From positions 62,001-126,000 of the forward strand of contig NZ_CP081962.1 in assembly GCF_019844075.1 (NCBI RefSeq): a DNA stretch of 64,000 nt, in the 5' to 3' direction. Positions 43,934 through 52,040 of this stretch are shown piece after piece. Position numbers and translations under genes: made by a program. Source of the DNA: Curtobacterium sp. TC1 (GTDB lineage: Bacteria > Actinomycetota > Actinomycetes > Actinomycetales > Microbacteriaceae). Below the pieces are notes generated by a model. The model was not told the DNA's origin. It ran no database searches and saw only the letters and a list, made by a program, of their open reading frames with translations. How positions within the stretch are numbered: the stretch's first letter is position 1; each line of letters starts with the position of its first letter.

Positions 43934-44455
43934 GTGGCTGACATCGAGGGCTTCGACCCCGCGAGAATGGACGACGCGGCCGCGGAGCTCACCGATCCCG
44001 AGCTCACGGACCCGGAACTCGCCGGCGAGGACGACGAGGACGTGGGGCAGGTGAGTATGCGTGCGGTGCTCCTCGATTGGGTAACGGCGCACTTCGCCGG
44101 CGTCGAGTACGTGCACACCGACGAGCGGGCTCCCTGTTGCCCGGAGTGGTGGAAGCGCCCCGAGGTGGTGTCCCGACTCTGAGCGCTCTGGCAAGCCCAG
44201 GAGCAGGCCGAAGCGGATGCTGCCGACGACCTGTCAGCGCCGTCTGACTGGTCGTTGTCGCACTGGGACCGTCGCGCGGCGGTCCTGTTCGACTCCAGCC
44301 GCGGACCGTTCCGCAAGTGCGACCGGTGGCTCGAACACCTGCACAGCAGCGACGGCCTGCACGAGCAGCCCGTGCCGGTCGACTTCCCCCACACAGCTGG
44401 CATTCCCTCCAGTGAGCGCCGCAAGGAGTCCCCGCGCCCTACGATGACCACATGA
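43934..44455 (+). pseudogene. DUF4913 protein, interrupted by a stop codon
   Basis: Acidic N-terminus (MADIEGFDPARMDDAAAELT), then HFAGVEYVHTDERAPCCPEW, WKRPEVVSRL, an in-frame TGA (44180-44182), and in the same frame ALWQAQEQAEADAADDLSAP, LSHWDRRAAVLFDSSRGPFR, KCDRWLEHL. The CPEWW..PEV..RL.ALW.AQE and W-DH-L-GPF-C order is diagnostic of DUF4913, a small protein encoded beside coupling proteins on actinobacterial conjugative elements. The last codons overlap the next start (ATGA). Confidence 0.65.
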
Positions 44456-45924
44456 GCCGTACTCGCGTTGAGGAAGTGTTCAAGACTTCCGGCATCCCAA
44501 CCCATACCTTCGTCCCCCCGGCGGCCTTCCCGAGGCTCAAAGTTGCACTTCGCACCCCGGGACGGGGTGTCATCGTCGAGGGGCCATCCGGAATCGGGAA
44601 GTCGACCGCGATCGACAAGGCCCTTCGAGAGCTTGAGATGGACGCGAATGTCACACGTCTCTCAGCACGCGAGCCCACTGACGTTGAGTATCTAGAGGCC
44701 CTGCCCGACCTCGGCAAGTTTGGTACCGTGGTAATCGACGACTTTCACCGCCTAGAGGAATCGGTCAAGGGGCGCATTGCCGACCTACTGAAGGTGACAG
44801 CGGACGCCGAGGACGAGCAGCGTAAGCTCGTCATTATCGGTATCAATGACGCTGGAAAATCCCTCATTGACACTGCCCCAGATCTGACAAATCGACTTGA
44901 AGTGGTCCGATTCGAAATCGAACTTCCTCAAAAAATTCAGGAGCTTGTAGAGGCAGGGGAGGGTGCTCTAAATATTACCCTCGCCGCCAAATCCCTAATT
45001 GTGGAACGCTCTCGCGGCAGTTTCTACATCGCTCAGCTTTTGTGCATGAACGCCTGCATTCAAGCCAATGTGCTCGAACGTCCGGTTTCACGTAAAGCCG
45101 TAAACACGCCTTATGCGGCGGTGCAACGACAGGTTGTGGAACGTCAGAGGGACCGATTTGGGGACGCGGTTCGAAGCTTCGCCCGCGGCACACGGTTCCG
45201 CCCCGGCGGGCGGGCACCATACCTGCACATTCTCCGATGGCTTGCGGAGTCGGATGCGTGGAGCATTTCGATCGAAGACGAAATGAGGCATCACCCAACC
45301 GAAAAAGCCAGCGTCTTCCTCGTCCTCGATCGCGGATACCTTGCTAGCCAGGTCAGCTCACCAGAGATCAGCAGGCTTCTCCACTTCAACGAGCATGGTT
45401 CCATTCTGTCCGTCGAGGACCCAATGCTGACCTTTTACCTGCGATCCATATCATGGCCAGACTTTGTGCGCGAAGTCGGTTTCGCTAAAGTCGACTACGA
45501 AGAGACGTACGACATCGCCTTGTCGTTTGCCGGAGAAGATCGCGCTTACGCTGATGCTCTACGCGACGGCTTGGAGGATCTCGGACATACAGTCTTTTAC
45601 GATATGGCCGAGCAGCACCGCTTCCTCGGGGAAGACATTGAAGCCTTCCTTGCGCCCATTTACGCCTCAAATTCAAGGTATGTGGTTGTGGTACTCGGCG
45701 AAATGTACGGGCGCAAGCGATGGACGCTATTCGAGGCGAGCAATTACAAAAGTCGAATTGATGAAGGGCAAGTAATCCCTGTTTGGTCCACGCGGGTTGC
45801 GGCAAGCCCATTCGACTCCACGCGAGACAGGGGCGGTCTCGACTTTGATCCTGATAAGGAAGCACTCCCCCAGGCTTTACAACACGCCGGGGTGATTTCA
45901 AAAAAGCTCGGCCTGATGGACTAG
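44452..45924 (+). CDS. STAND-like ATPase fused to a C-terminal TIR domain
   Basis: A 490-residue protein of lower GC than its neighbours. NTPase part: Walker A VEGPSGIGKSTAIDKALREL (about 43-60), Walker B GTVVIDDFHRLEES (about 91-104), a helical lid region, and a winged-helix-like part (YLHILRWLAESDAWSISIED). TIR domain from about residue 350: YDIALSFAGEDRAYADALRD, GHTVFYDMAEQHRFLGEDIE, SRYVVVVLGEMYGRKRWTLF then EASNYKSR, which carries the catalytic glutamate after W. TIR effectors hydrolyse NAD+ or make signalling nucleotides after an NTPase sensor detects phage. Flanked by an lsr2 relic, consistent with silenced AT-rich cargo. Confidence 0.8.
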   Translation: MSRTRVEEVFKTSGIPTHTFVPPAAFPRLKVALRTPGRGVIVEGPSGIGKSTAIDKALRELEMDANVTRLSAREPTDVEYLEALPDLGKFGTVVIDDFHRLEESVKGRIADLLKVTADAEDEQRKLVIIGINDAGKSLIDTAPDLTNRLEVVRFEIELPQKIQELVEAGEGALNITLAAKSLIVERSRGSFYIAQLLCMNACIQANVLERPVSRKAVNTPYAAVQRQVVERQRDRFGDAVRSFARGTRFRPGGRAPYLHILRWLAESDAWSISIEDEMRHHPTEKASVFLVLDRGYLASQVSSPEISRLLHFNEHGSILSVEDPMLTFYLRSISWPDFVREVGFAKVDYEETYDIALSFAGEDRAYADALRDGLEDLGHTVFYDMAEQHRFLGEDIEAFLAPIYASNSRYVVVVLGEMYGRKRWTLFEASNYKSRIDEGQVIPVWSTRVAASPFDSTRDRGGLDFDPDKEALPQALQHAGVISKKLGLMD

Positions 45925-46254: not shown

Positions 46255-46533
46255 CTAAGCCAGTGCGTTGGCGCGGCGCAGGGCCAACACGTACTCTCGA
46301 GCTTGTTCGCGATCGCTATCGCGCTCTTGCTCGGTGAGGTCGGCGTACGCTGTCGTGGCCTGGTTTCTCCATCGGTCGACTAGGTGAGCGGGGATACGCA
46401 GGCTCCCGTCATCGAGCTGATCGCACTGACTGTGTAGATATTCCTGCCAATGCGCCCATCGTTCGTGCTCCACTGCGGCAATGGCCTCTAACGCAGCTGT
46501 CGTCTGCAAGAATTGGTCTGTCGAACCCGTCAT
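46255..46533 (-). CDS. RyR-like domain protein, third gene of the TIR-caspase operon (92 aa)
   Basis: [40 protein letters not shown], then SLRIPAHLVDRWRNQATTAY, ADLTEQERDSDREQAREYVL. The H-E-R-W helix, the P-X-LV segment and the L-X-E-X-E-R-D-X-D-R-X-X-A-R helix fit the prokaryotic RyR domain, which is predicted to bind nucleotide-derived ligands in immune systems. Its start overlaps the caspase stop by one base (TGATG), so it is translated with it. As a small stand-alone domain it could sense, sequester or transport the TIR signal; this is inference. Confidence 0.6.
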   Translation of the reverse strand: MTGSTDQFLQTTAALEAIAAVEHERWAHWQEYLHSQCDQLDDGSLRIPAHLVDRWRNQATTAYADLTEQERDSDREQAREYVLALRRANALA

Positions 46534-47525
46534 CAGATTAACCCCTTATGCACGAGGTTCCAGTAGTGCTCGCCAAGGACTGTAAGTTCACAAGCAGTAC
46601 TATTCATTGCGGCGAAATACATTGCCGAAGCATTTACCGGGCGGACTAGATTCACCTTCACATAGTTCTGTAGCACCCTGAAGGTCGCATTGTTGACCGG
46701 GTCGGGCTCGGGAATCGCTGGATCAGCAGCTTGTTCGGCGGACCGGTCAGGTTCGTACGACGGATCCAGCGGTAGCTGGTAATCCGGCTCCGGGAATATC
46801 TCGACCAGACGGTGAAGCTCGCCGAGGGAGATCGGTGGCGTCGCCTTCCTCAATGAAACGAAGGTTTTTACATTTGTCTTGAAGACCGGTCGTTGTTGCC
46901 AGGGGCCTAGAGATTGATCGATGTGCGCGTAAACACTTCCTGGGGTGATGTCCCCAACCAGGTTCGCTGCCGCACCGTTCAGAGCGTCGATGAGGAGGCC
47001 TGTGAACACACCGGACCCGCCCAACTCCATTGCGTACTGCTCCGCGGTTGATGCAGCCAGGATCGTGACGCCATTGTGAATCTGCGCTTGCCCGGCTGCT
47101 GCGGTGTTCGCCGCCGCCGCCCCACTGTGGCAGCTGTCGAGGACGATCACCTTGTTGGTCGCCGGAGACCTGCTTGCGAAGGTCACCACGTCCGCGAGAG
47201 CCACGCCGTCGTCACCGGATGCGGCGTCGCTGGTGCAGAGATATCCACCTGTGTCCTCAAGGAAACCGTGGCCTGAAAAGTAGAAGAGCGCGATTTCTGC
47301 GTCGTCCTCGAAGAGTTGACGGACCGCATCCTTCAGATCCCCTCGACTGATCGCCGTCTCTGCGTTAGTGGCCGTTATGAGCCGAGGGTTTGTGAAGTTC
47401 TTCGTGCCATCAGCGTGATGCTCGAGAACGCCTTCAACGTCATGCGCGTCGTTGACGCATCCGCGAAGGCTCTGTAGATGCTCGTAGTGATCGACTCCAA
47501 CGACTAGAGCCTTCCGCATGCCCAT
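46533..47525 (-). CDS. caspase-like protease of a type IV Thoeris system
   Basis: A 330-residue protein. Peptidase C14 domain in residues 1-200: [45 protein letters not shown] with catalytic His86, and [16 protein letters not shown] with catalytic Cys132. The C-terminal 110 residues ([36 protein letters not shown]) are a separate domain, probably the signal sensor. In type IV Thoeris a TIR protein makes an NAD-derived cyclic nucleotide that activates such a caspase, which then kills the infected cell. TGATG overlaps on both sides show a three-gene translational unit. Confidence 0.8.
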
Positions 47526-47896
47526 CAGAGCGAATCGATGAAGTCGCTGATATTCTTGTCGCTCCAAGTCTTGGTGGAGACGCCCGCAATCGTCGCCCGG
47601 TCATCCGTGTACGCCCAGATGCCCAGAATCGGCTTACCTTCCTCCTTGGCGCAGGCGATTTCCCACTTCTGCCCTGTCGAAGCAGCGGAGTTCTTGCTCA
47701 CAAGAACGATCACACCATCCGAGCGACGGATGCGCGTCCGCACCTTGCTCTGCCAGTCGGAGTCGTAAGCCTCCTTGACTGACATGTCAATGAACTCGTA
47801 AGGGGCTCGAGGGGACAGCGACTGCCCCTTGAGGAAGTCACGCTGGCGCTCGTCCTCGATCGCGAACGCTACAAATACGGTCTTCGTACTGGTCAT
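47525..47896 (-). CDS. ThsB-like TIR protein of a type IV Thoeris system
   Basis: A 123-residue single-domain TIR-like protein: [60 protein letters not shown], then [20 protein letters not shown]. This is the MTH538/ThsB form, with the active-site glutamate Glu79 in [11 protein letters not shown]. ThsB proteins detect infection and convert NAD+ to a cyclic ADP-ribose-type messenger. First gene of the operon TIR-caspase-RyR; Shine-Dalgarno ggagcccc before ATG. Confidence 0.8.
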
Positions 47897-48001
47897 TTGG
47901 GGCTCCTTTGCTCCGAGGTGGGTTTGATCACGAGTCTACCGACAAGACCCGACATCGGAGGCCTATGCTCGACGAGCAGGACTGCTCAGAAGGAGATGCG
48001 A

Positions 48002-48676
48002 GTGACGCTACCTGAGTCCATGTTTGGCGTTGTGGCCTTGGTCGCCCTGGTGATTCCGGGCGTCGTGTTCGCCGGAGTGCGATCCTGGCTCCGCGGCTTC
48101 AAATGGTCCGATCAGACGGCCTCGACGAGAATCCTCGACGCGCTCTTGGTGAGCGTCGTCCTCGATGCTGTCTATCTGTGGCTCTTCGGGAAGCTGCTCG
48201 TGCCCTTCCTCGCGAACCCTAGGCCTGAACTCGCTGCTCACCCTGCTCAAGCGGGGTTCTTGGCCACGCTACTCGGCGTCATCATTCCAGCGGCCCTAGC
48301 GCTCGGATGGCACGCGGATGTGGCCTGGCGCCCGTTGCGGTGGCACTGGTGGCCGTCTTGGATCCGGTTTCCTCGGCGTCGAACCGCGCACGAGAGCACG
48401 CCAACAGCTTGGGACAAGGCGGCGCCTCGCAAGACGGACGTTTGGGTGAAAGTGCTCTTGCCCAGCGGTGAACGTGTCGCTGGCTGGGTCAGTGGTGAGA
48501 GCTTCGTGTCGACCTACCCGCACTCTCGCGACATCTACATTCAAGAGCAGTTCGCCGTCGACGAGAGCGGCACCATTGGCGAACGTCTGGAGAACACGGC
48601 GGGTGTCTGGCTCAGCATCCCCGACGGGGCGATAGTTGAATGGCTCTACCCCAACAGTGAGGACGAATCCGCATGA
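48002..48676 (+). CDS. DUF6338 membrane protein (224 aa)
   Basis: Starts GTG (VTLPESMFGVVALVALVIPG) six bases after aaggag. N-terminal helix FGVVALVALVIPGVVFAGVR, two further membrane helices (about 45-66, 80-100), then a cytoplasmic domain of 100 residues: KTDVWVKVLLPSGERVAGWV, SGESFVSTYPHSRDIYIQEQ, WLSIPDGAIVEWLYP. This P-G-X-X-F...Y...G-X-S-X-YP-RD-Y pattern is DUF6338, found in many bacteria often near toxins and defence genes. Coupled by ATGA to a 52-residue gene, and divergent from the Thoeris operon. Confidence 0.7.
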   Translation: MTLPESMFGVVALVALVIPGVVFAGVRSWLRGFKWSDQTASTRILDALLVSVVLDAVYLWLFGKLLVPFLANPRPELAAHPAQAGFLATLLGVIIPAALALGWHADVAWRPLRWHWWPSWIRFPRRRTAHESTPTAWDKAAPRKTDVWVKVLLPSGERVAGWVSGESFVSTYPHSRDIYIQEQFAVDESGTIGERLENTAGVWLSIPDGAIVEWLYPNSEDESA

Positions 48677-48831
48677 ACGACCGACAGCCGAATCACGATC
48701 ACGTCACCGAGGGTGCCATCACCAGGGGCGCCGCTCCCACAGGCAACCGCCCGGCGCCCACCCGGGCCCCACAGACACCCTCCGGGGTTTACGTTCCTCC
48801 GAAGCCGTCCAACGACCAGCCGCGCAACTAG
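48673..48831 (+). CDS. small Pro-rich protein coupled to DUF6338 (52 aa)
   Basis: MNDRQPNHDHVTEGAITRGA, PTGNRPAPTRAPQTPSGVYV, PPKPSNDQPRN. Disordered, Pro/Arg-rich; start overlaps the DUF6338 stop by four bases. Likely a small partner of that membrane protein, since this tail-like gene is conserved only by position here. No family recognised. Confidence 0.5.
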   Translation: MNDRQPNHDHVTEGAITRGAAPTGNRPAPTRAPQTPSGVYVPPKPSNDQPRN

Positions 48832-48874
48832 CAACGAGCGGCAGAAGCACGCATCCCTCTCTAGGTCGCCGAGA

Positions 48875-48895
48875 TCGGATACGGCGGTACTGTCA
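48875..48895. repeat. island motif, copy E (before the resolvase)
   Basis: TCGGATACGGCGGTACTGTC then A: two bases shorter than copy A. It lies about 120 bases upstream of the broken resolvase gene, the usual place of a res site. Confidence 0.5.
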
Positions 48896-49013
48896 GCGTG
48901 ATCGCTGCCTCTCTGGGGTATACCCCAGCGCTACGGCCACGCTGCTGTTCGTTTCGCGTAGTTCTAGGGTGCCGTTCCGCTCTTTTGCCACAGGAGTGTG
49001 CGAGGGTCTAGGA

Positions 49014-49647
49014 GTGGTGCAACGCAAGACGCAGACCGTCGCCTACGTTCGGGTGAGCTCAATCGATCAGAACCTCGACCGACAGCTCTAGGCCATCGGC
49101 GACGTCGACCGACTGTTCGAAGAGAAGATCTCCGGCGGCTCCCGCACCGACCGAACCGCGCTGCTCGACTGCATCGGATACGTCCGCGACGGCGACCCCG
49201 TCCGATTCGCATCGATGGACCGGCTCGCCCGCTCCCTCGGTGACCTGCGGAACATCGTCGACGAGATCACCGCCAAGGGCGCATCGGTCGAGTTCGTCAA
49301 AGAGCAGCAGACCTACAGCCGCGACACCGACGACGCCATCGGCCGGCTCATGCTCAACCCTCGGCGCCTTCGCCGAGTTCGAACGCACCCTCATCCGCGA
49401 ACGCCAACGCGAAGGGATTCGTATCGCCAAGGCCGCCGGCAAGTACAAGGGCCGCTCGCGAAAACTCACCGACGGCCAAATCACCGAAGCACGCCGACTC
49501 ATCAGCACCGGTGTCCCCAAGACCACTGTCGCCCGTCAGCTCAGCGTCGACCGCACGACGCTCTATCGGATGCTCGCTACCTCCACCGCACTCTCCCCCG
49601 CGACGCCCACTGCTGAGCACCCCGAGGGGAAGCGCGAAACCGTGTAG
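49014..49647 (+). pseudogene. serine resolvase/invertase, broken by a stop and a frameshift
   Basis: TQTVAYVRVSSIDQNLDRQL (catalytic Ser in RVSS), an in-frame TAG (49089-49091) in place of the usual Glu, AIGDVDRLFEEKISGGSRTD, then RFASMDRLARSLGDLRNIVD and DDAIGRLMLN; the end LGAFAEFERTLIRERQREGI, then the HTH VPKTTVARQLSVDRTTLYRM, is one frame over. Full-length family size is about 205 residues. Small resolvases of this type recombine res sites of Tn3-like elements or invert DNA. It probably once acted on the motif family in this island. Confidence 0.8.
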
Positions 49648-49650
49648 CGT

Positions 49651-51510
49651 TTGGCGCCCCCCCGGATTCACTTGATCGACGCAACACCTTCCTCCGAGGT
49701 GTTGCCCTTGTACTTGTCCCTGTCGTCTCCGCAAGCTGTCCGGTTCCTCGCCCTGATCCGGGAGGGGCGCGGTCTCAAACCTTCCGCCCGAATCGCTGGC
49801 GTCGGCAAGGAGACCGGGTACCGGTTCCTTCGCGAGCGGTATCTGCAGCTGCGCCGTTCCGGTTCTGACCCTGCAGCAGCGTTGACCGTCGTCGGTGTGA
49901 CGAGCAGTCGCGTGGCCTCGTGGGAAGCGCGTCTGAACCTCGACGGCAGGCATCATCTGCGCGTCGAGCTGAGCGTCGAGGAGCGGTTCTGGTCGGCGTT
50001 TCACGCGGGTGCATCTGTCGAAGCTGCCGCGGCCGGAGCCGGGCTGGGCCGCGCGACCGGCTACCGGCTCGTCCGACGCCGATTCGACGAGCTCCGGGAG
50101 GGAAGCTCCGTCGCGTCTGTCGCCGTCACGCTTCGGCTGAGCGGGAAGCGCGCTGACCTGCTCGAACGGGAACGGCAGAGCAGACTCCGCCGCGACCAGA
50201 GCGCCGCCGCGGCGGCGCTGCGCAAGGCGTTGGCAGCGTCGGCGCGCGTTGCTGAGCTGTCACTGACGACGACGCGGCGAGGGCGAAAGGCCCGCGACGT
50301 TGAGGACGAGTACTGGCAGCTGATGCGGCAGGGCATGAGCAACACCGACGCCTGCAGACTGCTTGGCATGTCTCGACGCTCCGGCACCCTGATTCGCCAA
50401 CGAGCCGGCTACCGCATCCCGCCAGCGAGCCCTATCGAGCCGGCGTCGTCGGGACGTTACTTGGCGCTGCGGTAACGGCTCGAGATCGCCGACCTGCGCC
50501 GACTGGGACTCTCGATACGCCAGATCAGCGTCCGTCTGGGCCGGCACCCCTCGACGATCAGTCGCGAGCTCCGACGGCACCGGACGGGAAGCGGGGACTA
50601 CTTGCCGCATCTTGCTGACGATGACGCCAGGCGCCAACGCGCTCGTCCGAAACCGCACCGCCTCGTCGCCGATGCCGCGCTTCGGCGGCTGGTGCAGCGG
50701 AAGCTGAACCGGTTCTGGTCACCGGAAGAGATCAGCGACTGGCTACGAAAGACCTACCCCACCAACCCGGCCATGCGCATCTGCCACGAGACCATCTACC
50801 GAGCCCTGCTCCTCCGGGAAGATGCTGGCCTGCACAAGCGCTACACGGGCAAACTCCGCACCGGACGTCGAGTCCGACGCACCAGGTGGAACAACCCCAT
50901 CGGTCGAGGATCCCGGATCCGGAACATGGCCAGCATCACCGAGCGTCCCGCCGACGCAGCCGACAAGCAGACCGCCGGCCACTGGGAAGGCGACCTCATC
51001 GTCGGTGTCGGTTCCGTGTCCGCGATGGCCACCCTCCGTGAACGCACCACCCACTACGGCATCGTCCTGAACCTCCCGAACGATCACACCGCGCGCAGCG
51101 TCAACGCTGCGATCACGGAAGCGTTCGCCGCGATCCCCAACCACCTAAACGGTCGCTGACCTGGGATCAGGGCGTCGAGATGGCCGCCCACGAACAGCTC
51201 ACCGCCACGACCGGCGTCCCCGTGTTCTTCGCCGACCGTTCCAGCCCATGGCAGCGCGGCGCGAACGAGAACTTCAACGGGCTCCTCCGGCAGTACTTCC
51301 CCAAGGGCACCAACCTCGCCATCCACAGCCCCAGCCACGTCACCACCGTCATGAACGATCTCAACAACCGCCCGCGAAAGCGCCTCGACTACGACACTCC
51401 AACCCAACGATTCAACGCCGAGAAGCGCCGCAACACAGCCCTCCAGCTACCCCGAAACCAGCCCCAAATCGACCAACTGTTGCGTCGACCATCAGAATCC
51501 GCCGTGCCTT
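49651..51510 (+). pseudogene. IS30-family transposase, degraded
   Basis: Extended N-terminus with repeated HTH units (GVGKETGYRFLRERYLQLRR, GLGRATGYRLVRRRFDELRE), a stop codon TAA at 50473-50475 within RYLALR*RLEIADLRRLGLS, then HRTGSGDYLPHLADDDARRQ, WSPEEISDWLRKTYPTNPAM, GHWEGDLIVGVGSVSAMATL (first Asp). A one-base insertion near 51149 shifts the frame; in the next frame LTWDQG and the final NENFNGLLRQYFPKGTNLAI (Glu) complete the DDE triad. The mutations show that the element is inactive. Terminal repeats not identified. Confidence 0.8.
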
Positions 51511-51617
51511 CACCGGGCTTTTTTGCGGGACAGGCATACGGGAACCCCCTGGTCAGACAGCAGAAGACAACGGAGCGCTCTGAGGGCGACAGTTGGCGTG
51601 TAGCGGTGAACGACCGA

Positions 51618-52040
51618 CTATCGGGCGGCGTCGAACCGCGCTTGATGTGCTGAGACGTCATCGCGGTGGGTTTCGGACCATGTCTTGAGCTGCCGGACCG
51701 TCTGGTGCAGGGAGATCCCGAGGGCGGTGAGTTCGTACGTCACGGATACGGGGACAGTCGCGGTTGCTGTCCGGTCGACCAGGCCGTCACGTTCGAGCGA
51801 CTTCAGCGTCTGCGACAGCATCTTCGGACTCACACCCGCCAGGACCCTCGCCAGTTCGGAGTACCGCATGGGACGTGGTTCGCCGTCGCAGTCCGGCCCA
51901 CTCCCCAGAGCCGACAACACCAGAGTCACCCACTTGCCGGACACCTGCGCGAGCAACTGCTGGCTCGGGCATGCGGCGAGGAACGCGTTGTACTGCACCT
52001 TCGCTGCTGCCTTCTTCTCCGCCGCCGTGATAGTCGCCAA
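51618..52040 (-). CDS. HxlR-family transcriptional regulator
   Basis: A 140-residue protein starting at TTG after ggaggaaagc. CPSQQLLAQVSGKWVTLVLS, ALGSG, then MRYSELARVLAGVSPKMLSQ, TLKSLERDGLVDRTATATVP, VSVTYELTALGISLHQTVRQ. This is the HxlR winged helix (conserved N-terminal Cys, W-V-L-L, R-F-EL-R-GIS-K-L-L, Y-LT-G). It is divergent from an aldo-keto reductase gene across a 110-base space, the classic layout for a redox- or aldehyde-sensing repressor and its target. Confidence 0.8.
   Translation of the reverse strand: MATITAAEKKAAAKVQYNAFLAACPSQQLLAQVSGKWVTLVLSALGSGPDCDGEPRPMRYSELARVLAGVSPKMLSQTLKSLERDGLVDRTATATVPVSVTYELTALGISLHQTVRQLKTWSETHRDDVSAHQARFDAAR

Follow-up and report, generated by a model that had tools for sequence, protein, structure and literature searches.

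A TIR-caspase operon of Curtobacterium sp. TC1 with a coupled RyR-related gene, a candidate regulator of type IV Thoeris-like signaling

What role does a small RyR-related gene play in an operon that also encodes a Toll/interleukin-1 receptor (TIR) protein and a caspase-like protease? The question is raised by three leftward genes in a 64,000-nucleotide (nt) stretch of Curtobacterium sp. TC1 (assembly GCF_019844075.1, contig NZ_CP081962.1, positions 62,001-126,000), referred to here as the window:

47525..47896, minus strand: TIR protein of the ThsB type, 123 residues, predicted maker of a signal derived from nicotinamide adenine dinucleotide (NAD) (open reading frame, or ORF; PF08937; PADLOC ThsB; Glu79)
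46533..47525, minus strand: caspase-like protease, 330 residues, with His86 and Cys132 (ORF; PF00656; phrog_18397; NF047832 below its cut-off)
46255..46533, minus strand: RyR-like third protein, 92 residues (ORF; PF02026 below its cut-off; family profile against PDB; AlphaFold 2 model)

We consider the chances about even that this locus is a type IV Thoeris-like abortive defense operon with a built-in signal regulator, and that phage-borne kin of the regulator would serve in counter-defense. A first-pass annotation had described three leftward genes joined by single-base TGATG overlaps, and rereading of the coordinates and junctions from the sequence bore this out: the TIR/caspase and caspase/third-gene junctions are both TGATG, with a one-base overlap. 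The protein lengths and putative active-site residues that it had assigned were verified as well, and both of the stretches that it had singled out in the third protein, HERW and L-X-E-X-E-R-D, were found, the latter within LTEQERDSDRE. Upstream of the caspase ORF, whose coupled start is the ATG at 47525, an in-frame TTG is listed. Within its own genome, the PF00656 caspase and the third-gene family are each present in a single copy. A scan for promoters and terminators performed no better than chance. We confirmed that the three-gene operon is real and not a chance arrangement, because the TIR and the caspase both exceed curated Pfam cut-offs and homologs of the third gene adjoin homologous caspases in many genera.

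The first two genes resemble a known pair. The TIR protein matches PF08937 (ThsB_TIR; 8.8e-11, 42.5 bits, cut-off 21.2) and the PADLOC ThsB profile (9.5e-08), and its putative catalytic Glu79 lies within KWEIA. The caspase exceeds the curated cut-off of PF00656 (7.5e-18), carries His86 within SGHG and Cys132 within DSCHSG, and is covered over its full length by phrog_18397 (1.5e-80); its match to NF047832 (caspase_w_EACC1), at 107.8 bits, is below the cut-off of 140. According to the available text of PMC12847820, which refers to Rousset et al. 2025, type IV Thoeris consists of a TIR protein and a caspase-like protease, with the cyclic ADP-ribose (cADPR) isomer N7-cADPR as the signal; the pair is also treated in the available text of PMC13373217. 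The window likewise has a ThsB-type TIR followed by a His/Cys caspase-like protease in a single operon, and the earlier assignment of these genes to a type IV Thoeris pair holds by the PF08937 and PF00656 matches. On these matches, the window TIR and caspase are type IV Thoeris-like. The window operon differs from type IV Thoeris as described in the available portion of PMC12847820 by its additional, coupled RyR-like gene.

In its operon type, the third gene is conserved. Genome and viral loci were retrieved with sequence patterns built from words conserved in the family itself, and 80 of 104 genome relatives were retained. Among these 80 loci with a close third-gene homolog, 76 contain a caspase, which in 73 is on the same strand and no more than 300 nt upstream and in 3 (L032, L053, and L085) is on the opposite strand; the remaining 4 (L021, L067, L070, and L080) are truncated by contig ends and begin at or no more than 170 nt from a contig or locus end. 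A TIR was detected in 70 of the 80. The gap between caspase and third gene ranges from -4 to +49 nt over 76 measured pairs from host, plasmid, and two virus-labeled loci, and 32 of these pairs overlap. Coupling extends to plasmids: the third gene occurs in 19 of the 40 records listed (from 74 found), and in 17 of 20 plasmid records with the third gene that were checked by coordinates or by script, it adjoins a listed caspase. For the other three, a caspase lies in or beside the operon (CP155753 and MK318989) or a caspase fragment adjoins the third gene (AP017657). Two overlapping samples of 396 Actinomycetota genomes contained a caspase in 8 and 9 genomes, respectively, and the third gene in 4 genomes apiece; with the samples combined, 5 of 15 caspase-positive genomes carry the third gene. 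All host-type copies in these samples (5 genomes) accompany a caspase match, and the sole exception to this pairing is genome G206, described below. With the window's own copy set aside, the third gene is present in 4 of 4 genomes at a caspase identity of at least 61% (a partial match in G140) and in none of the 10 whose identity is 33 to 55%.

A caspase tree of 92 rows agrees with this pattern, near-copies, duplicates, and caspase ORFs of fewer than 200 or more than 420 residues having been excluded from it. The window's caspase falls in a clade of 50 (SH-like approximate likelihood ratio test, or SH-aLRT, 99) that spans Actinomycetota, Pseudomonadota, Acidobacteriota, and Bacillota. The third gene is adjacent in 49 of the 50 rows, and the other row was scored as distant through an overlap of reading frames. 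Most clade rows were retrieved through the third gene; the five retrieved through the caspase (L002, L111, L130, L134, and L135) all carry it, and no caspase locus within the clade is without it. Outside the clade, the slot behind the caspase holds a second TIR (L119:4448-4924, L124:4697-5188, L125:4500-5072, L141:4517-4993, and L142:4512-4988), a SLOG-like protein, an unknown protein, or nothing that was found. The SLOG-like case is weak (L129; PF06908, E 0.0023, below the cut-off), and a TIR gene follows it. The idea of a third gene coupled to TIR-caspase pairs thus stands for the window's caspase clade, where the gene is near-constant, and fails for many other TIR-caspase loci, from which it is absent (5 of 15 genomes and 19 of 40 listed plasmid records carry it).

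Gene content varies in individual loci. In L047 (4304-5915), the caspase and RyR-like genes follow an 8xMP membrane protein gene (PF24838, 3.1e-42), and no TIR was found in the locus. A metallophosphoesterase gene follows the caspase operon in L088 (4950-7604) and L005 (3995-6383). In a Sphingomonas locus (L003:2001-6246), TIR-like, caspase, S8 peptidase, CHAT-like, TIR, and RyR-like genes lie consecutively.

The third protein itself carries two motifs, H23-E-R-W26 and Y63..L66..E70..S73-D74-R75. When its family profile was compared with PDB, 16 of 17 matches were ryanodine receptors (best E, 4e-7), and 81 of 91 family members match PF02026, the ryanodine receptor R12 domain, at an E value of 0.05 or lower. 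The alignment with this domain covers the two conserved blocks in order (HxxW, then Y..L...EK..DR). Among 120 relatives listed, 23 carry PF02026, and none of the 120 is listed with any other Pfam domain. A profile search placed 3865 proteins in the family, and the named ones among those listed are mostly annotated as hypothetical protein. A PDB sequence search with the single window protein gave 0 matches, and searches of PADLOC, PHROG, and NCBIfam returned nothing useful for it. The AlphaFold 2 model (mean predicted local distance difference test score, 94.6) is a single small domain, predicted with confidence and free of any long disordered linker. By profile comparison, the third-protein family is RyR-related.

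In phages, the third gene is nearly always found alone. On viral contigs, 22 of 23 homologs lie in loci without a TIR or caspase, with little room upstream in two of the 22; the other, L088, has an adjoining caspase. Ten large neighboring ORFs on ten contigs were compared with phage families: matches were to tail, lysis, primase, head, or portal families for five and to a PHROG without known function for one, and the other four had no match. A copy is also present in Microcystis phage LMM01 and in eight relatives. In a tree of the third protein (100 short rows, weakly resolved, with 15 near-copy loci left out), 19 of 22 phage rows cluster (SH-aLRT, 89). The copy in G206, a bacterial genome without a caspase match, is probably prophage-borne, because it is phage-like and, judged by eye, lies between lysozyme-like and small membrane-like ORFs. 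Conversely, the phage-labeled record MT835687 has TIR, caspase, and third genes, and in both trees its proteins group with Sphingomonas guangdongensis proteins as identical; it is more likely bacterial DNA. Going by its title, work by Chen et al. in 2026 reportedly concerns a phage sponge that counters TIR-caspase signaling, and this sponge may or may not belong to the third-protein family.

Phage proteins with RyR domains offer a functional comparison. According to the available text of PMC13232231, such proteins cleave or sequester cADPR isomers. The enzyme described there, RyDEP (mycobacteriophage DyoEdafos gp78), has an H75/D117 dyad and places W78 on the adenine; six of eight other phage homologs bind the signals, and none of the other homologs assayed showed cleavage. 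Because one of nine phage RyR proteins cleaved its signal in that account, cleavage by the third protein would be less likely than binding. Like RyDEP and the phage RyR-domain sponges, the third protein is small, RyR-related, and has phage-borne kin, and it has H, W, and D at matching positions: alignment to the RyDEP sequence (MN234187, gene 78) pairs H23 with H75, W26 with W78, and D74 with D117. The H, both W residues, and the D are invariant over the 33 rows of alignment A1, which came from an unfiltered search with no motif selection. Other row sets were picked by an H..W..W motif, and residue counts are over distinct rows only; conservation of H23, W26, and W29 is therefore partly built in for sets chosen by that motif or by conserved words. 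L080 lacks the motif, and there a contig end cuts the gene. D74 is replaced by Asn in 1 of 21 distinct phage rows (L096).

Several results weigh against reading the third protein as an RyR-type ligand binder akin to RyDEP. The window protein matches PF02026 with an E value of 0.031 and 14.9 bits, below the cut-off of 27.4, and searches with its model by Foldseek and VIA-align 2, which were uncalibrated by a positive control, recovered no RyR or other ligand-binding fold. The RyR resemblance drawn in the first-pass annotation is thus upheld at the level of the family profile and the PF02026 matches and is not reproduced for the window protein at the Pfam cut-off or in the fold searches. His100 of RyDEP, which coordinates phosphate, is Asn57 in the window protein; Arg or Lys occupies this position in 48 of the 71 distinct host rows and 19 of the 21 distinct phage rows. 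Profile-profile comparison of the family with the RyDEP subfamily was not significant (14 columns, in a register that pairs D74 with D117), and the RyDEP-subfamily profile, at 5 bits or more, matched 1 of 92 family members and 7 of 920 shuffled sequences, so the family went undetected. Direct kinship to RyDEP was rejected, as neither profile comparison nor sequence scoring was significant. RyDEP also differs in that the window gene lies inside a host defense operon and in that the W26-Y63 segment is ten residues longer in the third protein. Because of the insignificant profile match, the longer segment, and the loss of H100, the family would be no closer than a remote relative of RyDEP, and its pocket would differ in part.

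We propose that the TIR protein would sense phage and make a cADPR-type signal from NAD, and that this signal would switch on the caspase-like protease so that the cell is killed or arrested. The third protein, as a diverged RyR-type domain, would bind the TIR-made signal and lower its free level, acting as a sponge or possibly as a glycosidase. Such damping would keep a leak or a weak trigger from firing the protease, and phages could use free-standing kin of the third protein as an antidote. Observed directly are the genes with their order and overlaps, their co-occurrence and conservation, and the solitary copies in phages; which signal is made, whether it is bound or cleaved, and in which direction the third protein acts are inferred. 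That the third protein tunes, senses, or sequesters the signal, as suggested in the first-pass annotation, appears to be the best-supported idea. Action on a shared signal is suggested because the family is found beside TIR-caspase genes in almost all of its host loci and by itself in almost all of its phage loci, and the RyR relation together with the conserved H, W, and D points to ligand binding.

The tight translational coupling beside the caspase would also suit a positive co-factor that, on binding either the signal or a phage trigger, would promote firing of the caspase or TIR, with the phage copies as dominant-negative decoys. Over 73 loci, distances among third proteins track those among caspases (r 0.47) more than those among TIR proteins (r 0.27), as such a co-factor might lead one to expect; the TIR-caspase correlation is 0.83, and 0 of 2000 permutations were as high in each case. 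Two observations nonetheless disfavor an essential co-factor. Many related TIR-caspase loci have no third gene, which means that the basic circuit can do without it, and in L032, L053, and L085 the gene lies on the opposite strand, an arrangement that fits an autonomous regulator. We regard the co-factor as unlikely. Rather unlikely, too, is a direct antitoxin-like inhibitor of the caspase or TIR that would use an RyR-derived surface and no ligand. It would account for loci in which a caspase is kept beside the third gene where no TIR was found (L024 and L047, the latter with 8xMP upstream), and the stand-alone phage copies fit it equally well; against it, the conserved residues appear to be those that line the RyDEP ligand pocket and not a variable interface.

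The third protein might instead be cut by the caspase, either as its substrate or as a second effector that cleavage sets free, given that bacterial immune systems are known in which the genes of a protease and its substrate are paired (PMC12799240, available text). The predicted single small domain without a long linker speaks against this, and the stand-alone phage copies would be hard to explain, which makes it very improbable. Hardly credible is a passenger gene on a mobile defense cassette: loci are often on plasmids, and transposase-like or HTH genes lie near the window operon, but the presence of a caspase in nearly all genome loci, the narrow spacing of the measured pairs, and the conservation of active-site-like residues all argue otherwise.

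A variant of signal regulation is that the third protein erases the signal. Ring nucleases of type III CRISPR systems, which the host encodes, switch off a nucleotide alarm signal, and phages carry kin of these enzymes that act in anti-defense. By analogy alone, the window operon shares the logic of a host off-switch with phage kin; fold, signal, and chemistry are all different. Such an RyR-superfamily enzyme would cleave a cADPR-type signal to time or gate caspase-driven death, and phages would have taken or given the module as a stand-alone anti-Thoeris weapon. We hold this host-encoded eraser to be possible, on the doubtful side. We found no report of an RyR-like third gene in TIR-caspase operons in searches of open-licence PMC papers. 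If signal regulation by the third protein is correct, a bacterial TIR pathway would have its own signal brake, and phages would use the brake's kin as counter-defense. The operon would then allow internal tuning of Thoeris to be tested directly. The RyR fold, whose connection to cADPR in animals is a long-standing matter of debate, would also be linked, in a single operon, to a natural cADPR-type ligand. The third-protein family is, moreover, a large one.

The operon is flanked in the window by the following features:

44452-45924, plus strand: P-loop/AAA NTPase with a C-terminal TIR, convergent neighbor and predicted defense gene (PF13676, 2e-12; PDC-S59, 7.8e-13)
47960-48676, plus strand: DUF6338 gene, divergent (PF19865, 2.1e-44)
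48636-51653, plus strand: resolvase-like and transposase-like ORFs (helix-turn-helix, or HTH, domains)

No counterpart of the AAA-TIR gene was found in the other third-gene or TIR-caspase loci examined, and for this reason it was not counted in the operon. The resolvase-like and transposase-like ORFs suggest that the operon lies by mobile DNA. Relatives of the DUF6338 gene occur near TIR-caspase genes in L018, L055, L115, and L126 and, by annotation, in L002.
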